This document shows positions 4,499 to 10,921 of a stretch of 64,000 bases of DNA, in pieces. The notes beneath the pieces were generated by a model. That model had not been told where the DNA came from, ran no database searches, and was given only the letters and a program-made list of their open reading frames with translations. The stretch spans positions 1 through 64,000 of the forward strand of contig QHTE01000060.1 of assembly GCA_003220685.1 (NCBI GenBank), read 5' to 3'. Source of the stretch: Candidatus Rokuibacteriota bacterium (lineage in GTDB: Bacteria > Methylomirabilota > Methylomirabilia > Rokubacteriales > CSP1-6). Made by a program: the position numbers and the translations under genes. The stretch's first letter is position 1. Every line of letters begins with the position of its first letter.

Positions 4499-5202
4499 GC
4501 GCGTCGCCGGTGCGCAAGCAGATCGTCGCGATGGGCGGCGGCAGCTTCAGCGTCGAGCCCGAGGGCTCGGCGCTCGACGCCTACGTCCTCGGGCTCACCG
4601 GCAAGCCGCGCCCGAAGATCTGCTTCGTCCCCACGGCGAGCGGCGACTCGCCGGAGTACACGACGAAGTTCTACGACGCGTTCGCCCGGCGGGCGGAGGC
4701 GACGCACCTCCATCTCTTCGGACGCCCGCGCACGGACATCGCCGGCTTGCTCGCGAGCCAGGACATCATCTACGTCGGCGGCGGAAACACCGCGAACATG
4801 CTCGCGGTGTGGCGCGTGCACGGCGTTGACCGGATGATGCGCGACGCGTGGGAGCGCGGCGTGATCCTGACCGGCGTCAGCGCCGGGATGATCTGCTGGT
4901 TCGAGTGCGGAGTGACCGATTCGTTCGGACCGCTGGCCGCGCTGCGCGACGGCCTCGGCTTACTGTCGGGGAGCGGGTGCCCGCACTACGACGGCGAGAA
5001 AGACCGGCGGCCGACCTATCAGCGGCTCGTTCGCGGCGGCTTCCCGGCCGGCTACGCGGCGGACGACGGCGCCGCGCTGCACTTCGTCGGCGCCGACCTC
5101 GTGGCCTGTGTGGCCTCGCGGCCGACGGCCGGCGGCTATCGCGTCCGCGCCGAGAGCGAGGCAGTCACCGAGACTCCGCTCTCGGTCCGGCTCCTCGACT
5201 GA
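4495..5202 (+). CDS. Peptidase S51 family (dipeptidase E-like)
   Basis: A 235-aa cytosolic serine peptidase of the S51 family, which removes Asp-X dipeptides (peptidase E) or acts on cyanophycin. The nucleophile elbow is visible as GVSAGMICWFE, preceded by YVGGGNTANML, the conserved Gly-rich strand. The N-terminal MGGGSFS is also typical. The GTG at 4495 overlaps the previous stop (GTGA), indicating translational coupling; GTG 4510 or ATG 4531 are alternatives. The length matches the family. The link with the upstream lyase is positional only. Confidence 0.85.
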   Translation: MSASPVRKQIVAMGGGSFSVEPEGSALDAYVLGLTGKPRPKICFVPTASGDSPEYTTKFYDAFARRAEATHLHLFGRPRTDIAGLLASQDIIYVGGGNTANMLAVWRVHGVDRMMRDAWERGVILTGVSAGMICWFECGVTDSFGPLAALRDGLGLLSGSGCPHYDGEKDRRPTYQRLVRGGFPAGYAADDGAALHFVGADLVACVASRPTAGGYRVRAESEAVTETPLSVRLLD

Positions 5203-5354
5203 AACGCGCGCAACTGGATCACGGCGCGGCTGCGACCGCCCTGGCGCGGGTGGTTGGGCAGGCTCTCGCCGAAGTAATCGATGATCCGGTCGATGCGCCG
5301 CGCCGAATCTCGCTTGAAGGGCGTGAACCGATCGAGCACGACCCTGGTGTTCAT
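5136..5354 (-). CDS. Possible small protein coupled to the thioredoxin-fold gene
   Basis: A 72-codon open frame whose ATG overlaps the stop of the upstream thioredoxin-fold gene as ATGA, the spacing seen in real gene pairs here. It starts MNTRVVLDRFTPFK and is basic, with no membrane segment or recognised domain. Its 3' 67 bases overlap the end of the convergent S51 peptidase gene, and its last third is low-complexity. It may be a real short gene or chance. The stretch 5203-5350 otherwise holds nothing I can recognise. Confidence 0.25.
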   Translation of the reverse strand: MNTRVVLDRFTPFKRDSARRIDRIIDYFGESLPNHPRQGGRSRAVIQLRAFQSRSRTESGVSVTASLSARTR

Positions 5355-5824
5355 GCTCCGTGAGCACACTCAACTTCGATGCCACCGCCGACCGCTGCGT
5401 TGACGGGGACTTCGCAGAGCGGTCGCGCCGGCTCGCGTTTCCAAACGGAACACGGCGTTTCTCGACGAAACGGTGAGCGCGGATCGCGTGGCGCTCGGGT
5501 CTCCAGCAGGTTCTCGAGCACGCTCCGGGTCGCGGTGCCGATGACCCGATCCACGACCACGCCGTCCTTGAGCAGCAGGACCGTGGGCGTCTGGGTGACA
5601 GAGTAGCGGGTGGCGAGCGCGGGCCGCGCGTCGGCGTCGATGTCGGTCACGTGGACCCGACCCGCCGAGGCCTGCGCCAGGACCGTCACGATCGCCGCGA
5701 CACGGTCGCCGGCGTCTGAGCCGGGGGCACGGAAGAGCGCCATGACCAGGCCGGGCCGGGGAGACAGCGCTTCATCCAGGGCGCCCGGCGTCAATCCGCG
5801 GAGCGTCGCTACCGAATTTTTCAT
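5351..5824 (-). CDS. Thioredoxin-fold protein without the CxxC motif
   Basis: A 157-aa protein with the order of a thioredoxin domain: VMALFRAPGSD in place of the usual WCGPC strand, then a second half ending in the cis-Pro segment SVTQTPTVLLLKDGVVVDRVIG (about residues 77-98). The two active-site Cys are absent (APGSDAGD), so it cannot be a normal disulfide oxidoreductase; a binding or chaperone-like role is possible. The start is ATG 5824, since residues before it in the open frame are low-complexity. The C-terminal 50 residues after the fold have no recognisable features. It has no signal peptide, so it is probably cytosolic. Confidence 0.6.
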   Translation of the reverse strand: MKNSVATLRGLTPGALDEALSPRPGLVMALFRAPGSDAGDRVAAIVTVLAQASAGRVHVTDIDADARPALATRYSVTQTPTVLLLKDGVVVDRVIGTATRSVLENLLETRAPRDPRSPFRRETPCSVWKREPARPLCEVPVNAAVGGGIEVECAHGA

Positions 5825-5933: not shown

Positions 5934-6866
5934 TCAGCCCGCGCCGATGTGCGCCGCCATCCGGTCGCGCATCGCCGCGTCGGGCAGCCTGCCGGCCGCC
6001 GCCCTGAGATTGTCGACGAGGTGCTGGGGACGGCTCGTCCCGGGGATGGCGCACGTCACCGCCGGGTCGGCCAGGATCCACTTCAGGAAGAACTGCGCCC
6101 AGCTCTCGCAGTCGAACTCGGCGGCCCACGACGGCACGGCCTGAGCGCGCACGCGCTGGAAGAGCCCGCCCTCGGCGAACGGGCGGTTGGCGAGAACGGC
6201 GACCCCGCGGTCGCGGGCCAGGGGCAGGATGCGGCGCTCGGCCTCGCGCTCGCCGAGCGAGTAATTCACCTGCACGAAATCGAGCGTCTCGGCGCGCAGC
6301 ACGCGCTCGAGCTCGTCGTATGCGCTCGACGTGTAATGCGTGACGCCGAGATAGCGAATGCGGCCGGCCGCCTTCCACTCTCTGAGCGTCTTGAGGTGCG
6401 CGCGCCAGTCGAGCAGATTGTGGATCTGGATCAGGTCGAGCCGCCGGGCGCGCAGCCGCTTGAGCGACTGCTCCATCTGTGCCACGCCGGCGTCACGTCC
6501 GCTCGTCCAGACCTTCGTGGCGAGGAACAGCGTGTCGGTGATCGCCAGCTCGGCGGCCAGATCGCCGACGACCGACTCGGCCGCGCCGTACATCGGCGAC
6601 GAATCGACCACGCGTCCGCCGAGCTCGACCAGGTTCTTGAGCACGTCCCTCAGCGGCGCCCGCTCGGCCTGCGCGCCGCCGACGTCGAACACGCGCCACG
6701 TCCCCAACCCCACCACCGGAATCGTCTCGCCGCTCGCGGGAATAGGACGGCTCAGCATCTGGGGCGCGGCGCCGGCTCCAGCCGGAAGCGCGGCGGCAGC
6801 GGCCATCAGCCGTAGCACCCCACGCCGCGTGATCTGTCCGGCAGGGCTCTCATCTCTCCCTCTCAT
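5934..6866 (-). CDS. Aldo/keto reductase with Tat-type signal
   Basis: A 310-aa NAD(P)H-dependent aldo/keto reductase. The catalytic tetrad can be read: Asp and Tyr in VVDSSPMYG, Lys in LATKVWT and His in LIQIHN; the C-terminal AIPGTSRPQHLVDNL is the usual cofactor-binding end. The N-terminus carries ITRRGVLRLMAAAAALPAGA, a twin-arginine signal, so the protein is probably exported folded or membrane-anchored, which is uncommon in this family. The start at 6866 puts the RR pair about 13 residues in; the in-frame ATG at 6938 would give an implausibly basic extension. The substrate is unknown. Confidence 0.85.
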   Translation of the reverse strand: MRGRDESPAGQITRRGVLRLMAAAAALPAGAGAAPQMLSRPIPASGETIPVVGLGTWRVFDVGGAQAERAPLRDVLKNLVELGGRVVDSSPMYGAAESVVGDLAAELAITDTLFLATKVWTSGRDAGVAQMEQSLKRLRARRLDLIQIHNLLDWRAHLKTLREWKAAGRIRYLGVTHYTSSAYDELERVLRAETLDFVQVNYSLGEREAERRILPLARDRGVAVLANRPFAEGGLFQRVRAQAVPSWAAEFDCESWAQFFLKWILADPAVTCAIPGTSRPQHLVDNLRAAAGRLPDAAMRDRMAAHIGAG

Positions 6867-6953
6867 ACCACGGACATACCACGACCGCCGAATCGGCAGC
6901 CGACGGGAACGTTCACGCGTCCGACTTCGTCTGAACAACCGAGGAGGTACCCA

Positions 6954-7306: not shown

Positions 7307-8653
7307 CTAGCGATCGATCCCGTATTCTTTGAGCTTCCGCCAGAGCGTCGTGCGCCCGATCCCGAGCGCCTCGGCCGCGCTCGAGTGATTGCGCCCGAAG
7401 CGCTCCAGCGTCTGAAGAATGTGCACGCGCTCGGCCTCGGCGAGCGTGGTTTGCCGCGGCAGCTGGGGCGAGGGGCCGAGCTGGAGACCAGCCGAGACGT
7501 GCGGCGGCAGATCGTCGGGCTCGATGGTATCGCGGCGGGCCAGGATTGCGGCGCGCTCGATCGCGTTCTCGAGCTCGCGCACGTTGCCCGGCCAGGGGTA
7601 GCGGAGCAGCCGCTCGACGGTCTCGGGCGAGAGGCGCAGCTCGCGGCCGAGCTTACCGCCGGACCGGGCCAGGAAATGCTCGGCGAGCGCCGGAATGTCC
7701 TCGCGACGATCGCGCAGCGGGGGCAGCACGACCTGGATGACGTTCAGCCGGTAGAAGAGGTCCTCGCGAAAGCTGCCCTGCGCGAGCAACGCCGACAGGT
7801 CGCCGTGGGTGGCCGCGATCACGCGCACGTCGATGGTCGTCGACTGCGTCGCGCCGAGCCGGCGCACCTCGCCGCTCTGGAGCGCGCGCAGGAGCTTCAC
7901 CTGGAGCGCGGCGGGCATCTCGGCGATCTCGTCCAGGAACAAGGTGCCGCCGTCGGCTTCCTCGAAGAGACCGAGCTTGGAGACCGCGGCGCCGGTGAAG
8001 GCGCCTCGCATGTAGCCGAACAGCTCGGACTCGAGCAAGGTCTCGGGCACCGCGCCGCAGTTCACCGCCACGAACGGACGCGCCGCGCGCGGGCTCGCGT
8101 GGTGCACGGCCTTGGCGATGACTTCCTTGCCGGTGCCGGACTCGCCCTGGACGAGCAAGGTCGCGTCCGTCGGCGCCACGCGCTCGACGAGGTCCAGCAC
8201 GTCCTGCATCGCCGACGACTGGGCGATCAGCCCGGGCAGGCCGTAACGCTCGCGCAGCTGGGCGCGGAGGTTCTCGTTCTCGCGGCGGAGCGCGCGGCCG
8301 GCCAGCGCCTTGTCGATGCGGTGATAGAGCTCGTCGGGCTCCTGCCCCTTCTCGAAGTAGTCGAGGGCCCCGAGGCGGATCGCCTCCTTGGCCGACTTCC
8401 ACTCGGCGTACGCGGTCAAGAGGATCACCTCGGTCGCCGGCGCGTGGGCCTTGGCCGCCCGCAGCACGTCGAGCCCGTCGCCGTCGGGCATGCGCAGATC
8501 GGTCACGACGAGATCGAACACCTCGTCCGAGAGCCGCGCCGTCGCGGAGGCGAGGCCGTCGGCCTCGAGGACGCGGTGGCCGCGCTTGCGGAGCAGGAGG
8601 GCCAGGGTGCTTCGCGCCGACGGCTCGTCGTCCACCACCAGCAGATGGGCCAT
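7307..8653 (-). CDS. Sigma-54-dependent response regulator, NtrC family
   Basis: A 448-aa enhancer-binding activator with three domains. The receiver (about 1-120) has VVDDEPS, the phospho-acceptor in TDLRMPDGDG and LTAYAEWKSAK. The AAA+ domain (about 140-370) has Walker A GESGTGKE, the sigma-54 contact loop GAFTGA and Walker B TLFLDEIAEMP. A Fis-type helix-turn-helix closes the C-terminus (NHSSAAEALGIGRTTLWRKL). GAFTGA shows it can open sigma-54 promoters. Its gene lies 1 base after the stop of the partner kinase. Dyads and -24/-12 promoters at 10.0-10.7 kb are the obvious candidate targets, including its own operon. Confidence 0.95.
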   Translation of the reverse strand: MAHLLVVDDEPSARSTLALLLRKRGHRVLEADGLASATARLSDEVFDLVVTDLRMPDGDGLDVLRAAKAHAPATEVILLTAYAEWKSAKEAIRLGALDYFEKGQEPDELYHRIDKALAGRALRRENENLRAQLRERYGLPGLIAQSSAMQDVLDLVERVAPTDATLLVQGESGTGKEVIAKAVHHASPRAARPFVAVNCGAVPETLLESELFGYMRGAFTGAAVSKLGLFEEADGGTLFLDEIAEMPAALQVKLLRALQSGEVRRLGATQSTTIDVRVIAATHGDLSALLAQGSFREDLFYRLNVIQVVLPPLRDRREDIPALAEHFLARSGGKLGRELRLSPETVERLLRYPWPGNVRELENAIERAAILARRDTIEPDDLPPHVSAGLQLGPSPQLPRQTTLAEAERVHILQTLERFGRNHSSAAEALGIGRTTLWRKLKEYGIDR

Positions 8654-8654
8654 G

Positions 8655-9977
8655 TCAGGCGGCCTCGAGCGGAAACAGCAAGGTCACGCGCGTGCCGCGA
8701 CCGACCTCGGAGTCGATCTCGATCCGGCCCCCGTGCGCGCCCACGATGCGCTCGGCGATCGTGAGCCCGAGCCCGCTGCCGTTCGGCTTGCCCGTGTAGA
8801 ACGGCTCGAACACGTGCGGCAGGTTCTCCGCGGCGATCCCGGTCCCGGTGTCGCTCACCGAGAGGGCGACGTCGCCCTTCTGGCGATTGACCTCGAGCGA
8901 GAGCCGGCCGCGCCCGTGCATCGCCTCGACGGCGTTGAGCGCCACGTTCCACAGCACCTGGATGACCTGGTCTCGGTCGAACGCGAAGCGCGGAACAGCC
9001 GGGTCGACCGCCACGCGCACGTCCACGCGCGCCGCGCGCGAGCGGTCCCCGCGGATGAGCGAGCCGACGTGCTGGACCACCTCGCGAATGTCGCCCGGCG
9101 CCCGCCGCGCCGCCTGCGGACGCGCGAGCTGGAGAAAGTCGGACAGGATACGGTTCAGGCGGCGCGTCTCGGTCCGGAGCGCTGCGAGCGTCGAGGCGCG
9201 CTCCTCCGGCGTCAGCCCGGTGTCGTCGGTGAGGAGCGCGGTGGCGTTGAGGATGGCCGCGAGCGGATTGCGGATCTCGTGCGCCATGCCGGCGGCCAGC
9301 TCGCCCGCGGTCGCCAGCCGCTCGGCCTCGCGCAGGCGCGCGTGGAGCCGCTCGCTGTCGCTGCGCGCGCGCTCGAGCACCATGATGATCACGGCGAAGG
9401 TCGAGAGGAAATAGAGGAGGATGAACACCGCGTGCACCGCGAGGTAGCCGGCCGATCCCGGGGCCGTGCTCATGAACTGCGTCACGACGCGGTGAATGCC
9501 CCAGAGCGTGAGGAAGCCGGCCAGGAGCCGCTCGCCGCGGAATCCGGCGAGGCGCGCCTGCGAAGGCCAGAACAGCAGGCCGGCCGCCATCTGGACGGCG
9601 CCGAGCGCGATGCCGACCGCGCGCTGTGTGTCGTCGGCGGCCAGCTCCCCGGCGAGGGTGAGCACGACCGCGACGGCGGTGCCGATCAAGATGTCGCGGG
9701 CGCGCAGGCGATACGCCCAGCGATGCGCGAACGCGGCCGCCAGGGTGAAGCCGACCGCGGCGACGGTGGTGAGATCGGTGACGAAGCTCGGATGATCGAC
9801 GCCCAGCACGAGCACGTCGACGAGCTTGAGCCCCTTCGAGAGCGTGTAGGCGCCCCAGGCGAGGAGCAGGTACTGGAAGAAGCGCAGCCGGTGCGACTGA
9901 TACAGGTAGGCGAAGATCATCAGTTGAACCGCGAACGCGACGGTCGAAACGAACGTCATGATCAGCGGCGCCGGCAT
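8655..9977 (-). CDS. Membrane sensor histidine kinase, partner of the NtrC-type regulator
   Basis: A 440-aa kinase with about seven hydrophobic helices in residues 1-215 and no large periplasmic domain. This suggests it senses a membrane-associated or small-molecule signal. HisKA follows with the phospho-acceptor His in MAHEIRNPLAA (about 235), then HATPase with the N-box WNVALNAVEAM, SDTGTGIAAENL and GSGLGLTIAERIV. The C-terminus ends one base before the regulator's start, so the pair is co-translated. A GGAGG site precedes ATG 9977. A minus-strand sigma-54 promoter at 10007-10022 suggests the pair is positively autoregulated. Confidence 0.92.
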   Translation of the reverse strand: MPAPLIMTFVSTVAFAVQLMIFAYLYQSHRLRFFQYLLLAWGAYTLSKGLKLVDVLVLGVDHPSFVTDLTTVAAVGFTLAAAFAHRWAYRLRARDILIGTAVAVVLTLAGELAADDTQRAVGIALGAVQMAAGLLFWPSQARLAGFRGERLLAGFLTLWGIHRVVTQFMSTAPGSAGYLAVHAVFILLYFLSTFAVIIMVLERARSDSERLHARLREAERLATAGELAAGMAHEIRNPLAAILNATALLTDDTGLTPEERASTLAALRTETRRLNRILSDFLQLARPQAARRAPGDIREVVQHVGSLIRGDRSRAARVDVRVAVDPAVPRFAFDRDQVIQVLWNVALNAVEAMHGRGRLSLEVNRQKGDVALSVSDTGTGIAAENLPHVFEPFYTGKPNGSGLGLTIAERIVGAHGGRIEIDSEVGRGTRVTLLFPLEAA

Positions 9978-10006
9978 CAGAACCTCCGATTCAGTCTACG
10001 CTGCCC

Positions 10007-10022
10007 CGCAAATCGCATGCCA
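10007..10022 (-). promoter_or_regulatory. Sigma-54 promoter for the kinase/regulator operon
   Basis: On the minus strand, TGGCATGCGATTTGCG reads from 10022 to 10007. GG and GC are exactly 10 bases apart, and TGGCA and TTGC match the -24/-12 consensus. The predicted start near 9995 leaves an 18-base leader with GGAGG before ATG 9977. It points away from the other sigma-54 promoter across the shared dyads. Confidence 0.65.
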
Positions 10023-10063
10023 CGGCCGTCCCGCGTCGAATCGCACGAAATCGCCCCGCGCGC

Positions 10064-10165
10064 GTTTCACTCCGGAACGACGTTTCACTGCGGAACCCGC
10101 GGTGAGTCGGGGCCCGACGGTCGGCGCATCTGGTTCAGCGTGAACCCGGCGTTTCGGCTTGGAAC
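10064..10165. promoter_or_regulatory. Four 15-bp dyads, likely enhancer sites for the NtrC-type regulator
   Basis: Four near-identical dyads occur: GTTTCACTCCGGAAC (10064-10078), GTTTCACTGCGGAAC (10082-10096), GGTTCAGCGTGAACC (10132-10146) and GTTTCGGCTTGGAAC (10151-10165). They share TTC-N5-GRA. They are arranged as two pairs (offsets 18 and 19 bases) between two divergent sigma-54 promoters, roughly 70-180 bases from each predicted start, the usual enhancer distance. The gap 9978-10280 holds these elements and no gene. Confidence 0.7.
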
Positions 10166-10219
10166 CGGCGCGTGAGGTCGTCGCACGTGGGGCTTCAACG
10201 ATTTCACCGTCTTCGCGTC

Positions 10220-10235
10220 TGGCACGTCCTCTGCT
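10220..10235 (+). promoter_or_regulatory. Sigma-54 promoter for the DIQAPR repeat gene
   Basis: TGGCACGTCCTCTGCT has a perfect TGGCACG -24 box and GG-N10-GC spacing to the -12 GC. The expected start near 10246 gives a leader of about 35 bases containing AAGGAGG before ATG 10281. Confidence 0.75.
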
Positions 10236-10280
10236 CTACCGCAGTGCGAGTCGAACGAAACCACGAAGGAGGATGATGAC

Positions 10281-10508
10281 ATGAAGCGGAGCAGCGCACT
10301 CGCGATCTTCTTGGGGACCGCGCTCCTTGCCGGCACGGCGAGCGCCTCGATGGCGCAGTTCGAGAACATCCAGGCGCAGCGCGCGTCGAGCCAGGACATC
10401 CAGGCGCCGCGGTCGTCCAGTGAGGACATCCAGGCCCCACGCACCGACAGCCAGGACATCCAGGCCCCGCGAACCAGTTCGGAAGACATCCAGGCGCCCC
10501 GCGGCTGA
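10281..10508 (+). CDS. Secreted 75-aa protein made of DIQAPR decapeptide repeats
   Basis: A Sec signal peptide (residues 1-22, MKRSSALAIFLG...TASA) is followed by about 50 residues made almost entirely of five 10-residue units. The first unit is degenerate (ENIQAQRASS); then come QDIQAPRSSS, EDIQAPRTDS, QDIQAPRTSS and a truncated EDIQAPRG. The units alternate between E and Q at position one. There is no Cys and no hydrophobic core, so the mature peptide is probably disordered and secreted or periplasmic. A strong AAGGAGG ribosome site, a dedicated sigma-54 promoter and a hairpin after the stop make it a complete single-gene unit. I know no function for it. Confidence 0.8.
   Translation: MKRSSALAIFLGTALLAGTASASMAQFENIQAQRASSQDIQAPRSSSEDIQAPRTDSQDIQAPRTSSEDIQAPRG
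10362..10505 (+). repeat. 30-bp in-frame tandem repeat, about five units
   Basis: The unit is about (c/g)aggacatccaggc(g/c)cc followed by 12 variable bases. Boundaries are 10362, 10392, 10422, 10452 and a partial unit from 10482. The conserved core codes for DIQAPR; third-codon positions differ between units, indicating selection on protein rather than recent slippage. Confidence 0.9.
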
Positions 10509-10515
10509 TGGCCGA

Positions 10516-10550
10516 GCCGGGCGAGCGAGCGATGCACTCGCTCGCCCGGC
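10516..10550 (+). terminator. Strong hairpin after the DIQAPR gene
   Basis: A perfect 14-bp stem, GCCGGGCGAGCGAG (10516-10529) with CTCGCTCGCCCGGC (10537-10550), and a 7-base loop, 8 bases after the stop. No T run follows, so it may act as a terminator or 3'-end stabiliser. A second, shorter inverted repeat GCCTGTTT/AAACAGGC lies at 10576-10613. Confidence 0.6.
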
Positions 10551-10642: not shown

Positions 10643-10703
10643 ACTCCGGAACGAGCTTAACGCGACGCTCGATCGATCGGCGCTCGTTGGCACGCGCCGT
10701 GCT
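10643..10703 (+). promoter_or_regulatory. Sigma-54 promoter and half dyad before the winged-helix gene
   Basis: TGGCACGCGCCGTGCT (10688-10703) has a perfect TGGCACG and GG-N10-GC spacing. Its predicted start near 10714 lies about 20 bases before ATG 10736. Upstream at 10643-10652 is ACTCCGGAAC, identical to the right ten bases of the first dyad at 10064, suggesting a weak site for the same activator. Confidence 0.65.
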
Positions 10704-10735: not shown

Positions 10736-10921
10736 ATGACGGATTGGTGGAGCGAGCTCGACGACGAAATCGTGAACTGCCTCGTCGATCAAGAGTCCTT
10801 GACGCCTGCTAAGCTGGGCCAGAAGATCGGCATGTCGCCGGAGGCGGTAACCTCATTGCTCGGACGGCTCGCTCAGGAGGGGAGGATCGCCATCCTGCGA
10901 GTCGCGCGAACGTCCGGCTAG
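10736..10921 (+). CDS. Small winged-helix/HTH protein
   Basis: A 61-aa cytosolic protein consisting of one winged-helix domain. ELDDEIVNCLVDQ forms helix 1; TPAKLGQKIGMSPEAVTSLL is the helix-turn-helix; QEGRIAILRVA is the wing. It resembles the DNA-binding core of MarR/LexA-like families without any effector domain, so it may be a small transcription factor or protein-binding module. AGGAGG precedes ATG 10736 and a sigma-54 promoter lies just upstream. It ends with TAG in the same reading frame as the following hydrolase, which has no normal start codon of its own. Confidence 0.75.
   Translation: MTDWWSELDDEIVNCLVDQESLTPAKLGQKIGMSPEAVTSLLGRLAQEGRIAILRVARTSG

Follow-up and report, generated by a model that had tools for sequence, protein, structure and literature searches.

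In Escherichia coli, ZraR binds the spacer between the divergent zraP and zraSR and autoregulates (PMC8249747), zraP and zraSR are both direct ZraR targets (PMC7657598), and RpoN polymerase binds the same spacer (PMC8743547). The window analysed here, a 64,000-nucleotide stretch that forms part of contig C63 of a Candidatus Rokuibacteriota genome (6.09 Mb in 137 contigs, 88% complete), contains a locus of comparable anatomy. As in ZraPSR, a kinase/sigma-54 regulator operon is divergent from an accessory gene for an apparently exported product, each with its own -24/-12 element, the signal peptide in the window having been recognised by eye. In addition, the kinase core has its best solved fold match in the cytoplasmic domain of ZraS (9jfj, 33% identity).

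On the other hand, several features separate the locus from ZraPSR. The kinase scores 206.6 against a ZraS cut-off of 479 and the regulator 397.1 against a ZraR cut-off of 760, the accessory peptide is not a ZraP homologue (neither Pfam nor NCBIfam gave a match up to E 0.01), the sensor is predicted to have seven helices before its core, and relatives of the locus have extra dyad-marked targets, namely small-protein and ECF sigma factor genes. By analogy, the locus may work like ZraPSR, but by the features tested it is no member of that system. With regard to AtoSC and other NtrC-type systems, the regulator shares their REC-AAA+-HTH architecture, and its best NCBIfam scores are those for AtoC (443.2), NtrC (419.3), and ZraR, all of which lie below the curated cut-offs (714 for AtoC and 558.6 for NtrC).

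A third comparison is offered by the HrpRS-sigma-54-HrpL cascade, in which a sigma-54 activator drives the gene of an ECF sigma factor, a step that is also proposed below for relatives of the locus. Unlike in that cascade, the activator here belongs to a two-component system and apparently also drives its own expression and that of a peptide gene. The window's own genome, moreover, yielded no ECF gene next to dyads.

The first-pass annotation knew of no description of this circuit. Its topology is already known from zraP/zraSR (PMC8249747, PMC7657598, PMC8743547), and it is the peptide family, the kinase with its seven predicted helices, and the ECF branch that differ. The unusual aspects are a geometry that is almost constant across genera, a peptide family without a name, and targets that include small-protein and ECF genes.

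Organization of the Locus

The intergenic region (9978-10280) has the kinase/regulator operon on one side and the DIQAPR-repeat peptide gene on the other (Table 1). The regulator is an NtrC-type sigma-54 response regulator, with a REC domain, an AAA+ domain whose GAFTGA motif is at residue 217, and a Fis-type HTH domain; relatives with 64-97% identity occur in 15 of the 56 other genomes of the family (E<=1e-170). The HEIRNP box of the kinase begins at residue 233. In the AlphaFold model, whose confidence is modest (mean pLDDT 69.4), seven predicted helices precede the dimerisation domain, and the seventh continues into the dimerisation helix. The best 50 PDB matches to the model carry the titles of kinase cores, full-length kinases, and close kin, and no ligand of the helical part is named in any of these 50 titles. 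Eleven named kinase relatives come from Candidatus Rokuibacteriota MAGs; ten belong to the AR series, and the eleventh is an M_DeepCast isolate.

An aldo/keto reductase gene (5934-6938 in the window) lies 3′ of the regulator in some genomes and adjoins the peptide gene in others (G001 and G008 were compared), and this difference indicates that the neighbourhood rearranges while the switch stays. In another genome (G015, locus L064), the kinase is about 40 residues short and the regulator match is split in two, with promoters and dyads retained; these defects may reflect decay or an assembly error.

Table 1. Features of the two-component locus and its surroundings, in window coordinates.
Feature	Position	Strand	Basis or distance
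Small ORF, 72 aa, core RRIDRxIDYFGE	5136..5354	-	codon-position pattern
-24/-12-like element with GA replacing GC, TGGCATCGAAGTTGA	5369..5384	-	GG-N10-GA in 8/8 genomes compared
Near dyad, second apparent target	5437..5451		73 bp from -12
Far dyad, second apparent target	5457..5471		93 bp from -12
NtrC-type response regulator (REC + AAA+ + Fis-type HTH)	7307..8653	-	Pfam, motif check
Histidine kinase, HisKA/HATPase core	8655..9977	-	Pfam, motif check, AlphaFold, fold match
-24/-12 element of kinase/regulator operon, TGGCATGCGATTTGCG	10022-10007	-	GG-N10-GC, 12/12 genomes
Dyad 1, near, kinase-promoter pair, GTTTCACTCCGGAAC	10064..10078		centre 63 bp from kinase -12
Dyad 2, far, kinase-promoter pair, GTTTCACTGCGGAAC	10082..10096		centre 81 bp from kinase -12
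Dyad 3, far, peptide-promoter pair, GGTTCAGCGTGAACC	10132..10146		94 bp from peptide-side -12
Dyad 4, near, peptide-promoter pair, GTTTCGGCTTGGAAC	10151..10165		centre 75 bp from G of -12 GC
-24/-12 element of DIQAPR gene, TGGCACGTCCTCTGCT	10220..10235	+	GG-N10-GC, 12/12 genomes
DIQAPR-repeat gene, 75 aa, five DIQAPR-like repeats	10281..10508	+	ORF, homologues
Terminator-like hairpin after DIQAPR stop codon, 14-bp stem, no T run	10516..10550	+	folding
-24/-12-like site before HTH gene 10736-10921, TTGGCACGCGCCGTGCT	10687..10703	+	no dyad nearby; membership uncertain

Conservation of the Promoters and Dyads

The kinase is held by 13 of the 57 genomes of the family, the window's own included (E<=1e-95). 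One contig (G005) stops within the kinase, so its spacer is unreadable and 12 readable genomes are left. The coordinates and letters of the two GG-N10-GC elements were given correctly by the first-pass annotation, which had staked its reading on the retention of these elements and of the dyads in homologous loci. On that comparison, both -24/-12 elements are kept in all 12 readable Rokuibacteriota genomes and the four dyads in 11 (matrix score >6), the exception being G012, which has three and lacks dyad 3; under the stricter written consensus, G006 and G012 have three dyads each. Mean column identity over the 12 genomes is 0.91 for the dyad arms and 0.91 and 0.87 for the two -24/-12 elements, as opposed to 0.61 for the other 179 columns, and none of 169 shifted footprints matched the observed identity of 0.915 (best shifted, 0.892).

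Sigma-54 promoters have a GG-N10-GC core in a TGGCAC..TTGC-like context, and by this consensus both spacer elements are probable sigma-54 promoters, conserved in 12/12 genomes. However, GG-N10-GC is common in this GC-rich DNA, with several matches in each spacer inspected, and among 300-bp stretches of the window 8.8% reach a -24/-12 score of at least 16 and 2.8% of at least 17, compared with 17.4 and 18.4 for the two spacer promoters. Because the motif is frequent by itself, support for the promoters comes from conservation and fixed distance, not from the motif alone. The site at 10687-10703 has the top -24/-12-like score among seven promoters compared, and a similar site occurs in G003.

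The dyads are 15 bp long with the consensus GTTYC-N5-GRAAC, and follow one another in the spacer at offsets of 18, 50, and 19. The TTC-N5-GRA core that had been reported for all four, and the pair offsets of 18 and 19, were confirmed; the dyad at 10132 (GGTTC-N5-GAACC) is off the fuller consensus and has the lowest matrix score of the four. The 6.09 Mb genome contains 15 exact matches to the consensus versus 5 for the reversed-pattern control, and five of the 15 belong to the locus (three in the spacer, and those at 5437 and 5457). The occurrence of dyads at the locus is no chance effect. Elsewhere in this genome (G000), a second dyad was absent beside the 4 exact single dyads examined of 10.

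Across the family, 12 of the 57 genomes contain an 18-offset pair (at most 2 mismatches), one pair per genome, and the reversed control gave no match. Eleven of these 12 are kinase holders, the twelfth being G060, and the kinase genomes without such a match are G005, whose spacer is missing, and G012, whose offset is 19. A 20-offset pair was found in 14/57 genomes (control matches in 2), and G022 has a dyad pair with 2 mismatches. In 29 control loci (89,199 bases), the dyad matrix yielded 2 single matches and 0 pairs. As the matrix was derived from the switch and target loci themselves, its scores on them are circular; the distances are not. The pair in G060 (2 mismatches) was rejected as a target, no -24/-12 element being found at a fitting distance in the stretches examined, as was a pair in G073, with no GG-N10-GC behind it.

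It is through co-occurrence that the regulator appears to be the protein that binds the dyads. In another reading, judged very improbable, the dyads are operators of some other factor, e.g., a repressor, with the binding sites of the NtrC-type regulator lying elsewhere. Two genomes lean that way: G032 (98% complete) has a small-protein/ECF promoter with dyads and G073 (93% complete) has its dyad pair, both with no regulator match at E<=1e-170, and at such completeness an assembly gap is not the likeliest cause of the absence. Nevertheless, the dyad pair tracks the kinase across genomes, and it stands at a fixed distance from -24/-12 elements in front of several different target genes, both of which favour the regulator. 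In one genome with a regulator (G020, 72% identical), the kinase promoter is without a dyad pair and the pairs are located elsewhere.

Geometry of the Dyad Pairs

Distances run from the near dyad's centre to the -12 G. At the peptide-side promoter, the near dyad lies at 73-77 bp in 12/12 genomes (sd 1.0), and at the kinase promoter at 63-65 bp in 10 of the 12, with 73 and 75 bp in the remaining two, displaced by roughly one turn of the helix. Where four dyads are present (11 genomes), the two pairs are separated by 16 to 61 bp (sd 10.8), and the distance from the kinase promoter to the peptide-side pair drifts as well (sd 12.2). Beyond the 12 genomes, distant regulators have a kinase-promoter pair at 63/83 bp (G070) and 65/84 bp (G078), while G066 has one dyad at 62 bp and no pair; in these three cases, the promoters have GA at -12 and were chosen by a loose pattern.

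These measurements bear on the claim of the first-pass annotation that the four dyads together serve both promoters as one shared enhancer array. NtrC-type enhancers can work from a distance and in either direction, and all four window dyads are 63-164 bp from both -12 elements, so a shared array would be feasible. It is nevertheless considered unlikely, as the gap between the pairs drifts whereas each pair keeps its distance to the promoter it adjoins, and single-promoter targets carry one pair only, at a similar distance. Fixed distance to the own promoter, combined with the lack of mutual register between the pairs, gives preference to two back-to-back modules. Judging by spacing, each promoter probably owns its dyad pair, and cross-activation between the two promoters may occur alongside.

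Additional Candidate Targets

The first-pass annotation had suggested scanning the genome for more targets, and such a search found the pair at 5437/5457, which it had not listed. The near-dyad distance of this second apparent target is 71-73 bp in 7 of 8 genus genomes and 62 bp in one; at the cut-off used, two of the eight (G008 and G001) have the near dyad only. No such pair was found in G005, the ninth genus genome, whose contig is short, or in the stretches examined of G012, G015, G061, and G062. In the ORF downstream (5136-5354), the variable core columns number 5, 5, and 14 at codon positions 1, 2, and 3 (8 genomes), and this concentration at position 3 is the pattern expected for coding sequence. 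The protein has no Pfam match.

Small proteins with a RxIDRYIDYFG-like core were found in 16/57 family genomes (22 matches at E<=0.01; loci L084-L105), in a search that missed the window's own 5136-5354 ORF. Dyad pairs are present at four of these 22 loci (in G006, G007, G032, and G020) and absent at 18; one locus (L093) has one weak dyad, far away, and the small-protein copies of G003 and G004 have no dyads. Two IDYFG-related proteins tested had no match in Pfam.

Some of these small proteins accompany an ECF sigma gene. In G007, G006, and G032, a dyad pair (75/95, 74/94, and 81/101 bp, respectively) precedes a TTGGTC..TTGCAT element, behind which come a small protein, whose core is IDYFGD, and an ECF sigma gene, whose G007 copy was identified by Pfam. 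Behind the divergent promoter, G061 has the DIQAPR gene, then the small protein, then the ECF gene, and G062 has the small protein and the ECF gene with no DIQAPR gene. An ECF gene lies behind a dyad pair in G070 (promoter distances 72/92 bp). In G020 (L067, 4928-5653), a single ORF behind a dyad pair has a small-protein-like start (MSWMDFNEY...) and continues into an ECF sigma domain, which may be explained by fusion or by a start further along. Sigma-70 regions 2 and 4 are present in the ECF genes of G061, G062, G070, and G020. Altogether, a dyad-marked promoter precedes an ECF gene in seven of the genomes examined (G006, G007, G020, G032, G061, G062, and G070). Among 20 ECF homologue loci, two have dyads (L171 in G007 and L172 in G032), the dyad-marked copies of G006, G070, and G020 having fallen outside that set. 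No ECF gene beside dyads was found in the window's own genome (88% complete), which has two ECF homologues, on contigs C99 and C80; the dyad check covered the C99 locus, which has none.

Several promoters of the set have GA instead of GC at -12. In G078, a single dyad-marked promoter (72/93 bp, second dyad weak) is followed first by an IDYFGG ORF and then by a DIQAPR gene. Exported-looking peptides of 35-39 aa, ending in NSIQVE and NSIQTP, lie behind dyads in G020 (L067) and G078 (L162; by eye), and their position suggests that the regulon has further small exported products.

The DIQAPR Peptide and Its Relatives

The DIQAPR peptide has a signal-peptide-like N-terminus (by eye), and no match to it was found in Pfam, NCBIfam (up to E 0.01), or PDB. 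Over the first 22 codons, its gene differs from that of G006 by 8 synonymous and 2 amino-acid-changing substitutions. The hairpin that follows the gene has a folding energy of -48.2 kcal/mol over a 66-nt stretch (z -4.31). The product is probably exported, as its N-terminal sequence suggests, and would be an envelope or extracellular accessory.

DIQAPR-type proteins, short and long, are present in 26 of the 59 genomes examined, the window's own included, and all 26 belong to the window's family. Their repeats vary in number, spacers, and letters (DIQAPR, DVQAPR, DVVEAPR, and DTQAPR). A peptide gene stands behind the promoter in 11 of the 12 readable genomes; in G062, none is found within 1000 bp of the kinase start, and dyads and promoters are kept, which indicates that a peptide gene behind the promoter is dispensable for retention of the switch.

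Exported-looking long proteins (about 185-450 aa where complete) with QDVQAPRG-like repeats were also observed (L013, L016-L028, L030-L034, and L036-L038), most of which have a CPPEV- or CPAEV-like N-terminal part and an EAEAACKAG-like C-terminal part. As regulon members, they were rejected, no strict-pattern dyad being found upstream in stretches some of which were ended by contig ends; L037 has one weak dyad match just beyond its long-protein gene. Pfam matches to a long repeat protein were likewise discarded, since no stretch passes alone and they look like repeat artefacts.

Multi-copy repeats that end in arginine, a sensor predicted to be polytopic, and divergent genes sharing the same kind of dyad pair could together be explained by a peptide-signalling loop of the quorum type. 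In such a self-sensing or cell-to-cell circuit, the exported repeat peptide would be cut at its arginines and the fragments sensed by the kinase with its seven predicted helices, in a positive feedback through which the regulator would amplify itself, the peptide, and, in some relatives, the ECF sigma branch. We regard this as quite improbable: G062 keeps the switch with no peptide gene behind it (at this locus), the repeats vary as described above, and DIQAPR-type proteins are present in genomes without this kinase. No such peptide circuit in this phylum was found in the literature searched, which included no preprints and few subscription papers, and a text search for the peptide and small-protein motifs had a lone match, in a woody-plant proteomics paper (PMC3663981).

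Proposed Mechanism

The locus and its relatives are most readily seen, and we think with good likelihood, as a sigma-54-dependent two-component module of Rokuibacteriota, comprising an autoactivated operon, a co-induced peptide, and other targets marked by dyad pairs. NtrC-type regulators bound as phosphorylated dimers to paired sites assemble into the ATPase by which sigma-54 complexes are opened. Briefly, the kinase would phosphorylate the regulator, dimers of which would oligomerise on each dyad pair and act on sigma-54 polymerase at that promoter. The kinase/regulator operon would thereby be autoactivated and the DIQAPR peptide co-induced, together with the IDYFGE-type small protein (5136-5354) and, in some relatives, the ECF sigma factor, both marked by dyad pairs. 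An ECF sigma gene among the targets would make a sigma cascade. ZraP is said to repress ZraSR, and the DIQAPR peptide might plausibly feed back on its kinase in the same way, an analogy that is the least supported step of the scheme. The self-activating switch with a secreted peptide, as first annotated, stands in its anatomy and, judged by sequence, in its apparent autoregulation, but probably not in its single enhancer array.

Significance

The module represents a regulon defined by sequence, in a phylum that was represented in this analysis by MAGs alone. The dyad-pair rule, with its near-constant spacing, picks out apparent targets, including small proteins without a Pfam match. In addition, the genome set is a natural experiment on sigma-54 enhancer geometry, in which the distance from pair to promoter is held within a few bp, or moved by roughly one turn of the helix, whereas the remaining spacer sequence drifts. 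Should feedback of the DIQAPR peptide on the kinase prove true, the peptide would represent a new type of exported regulator.
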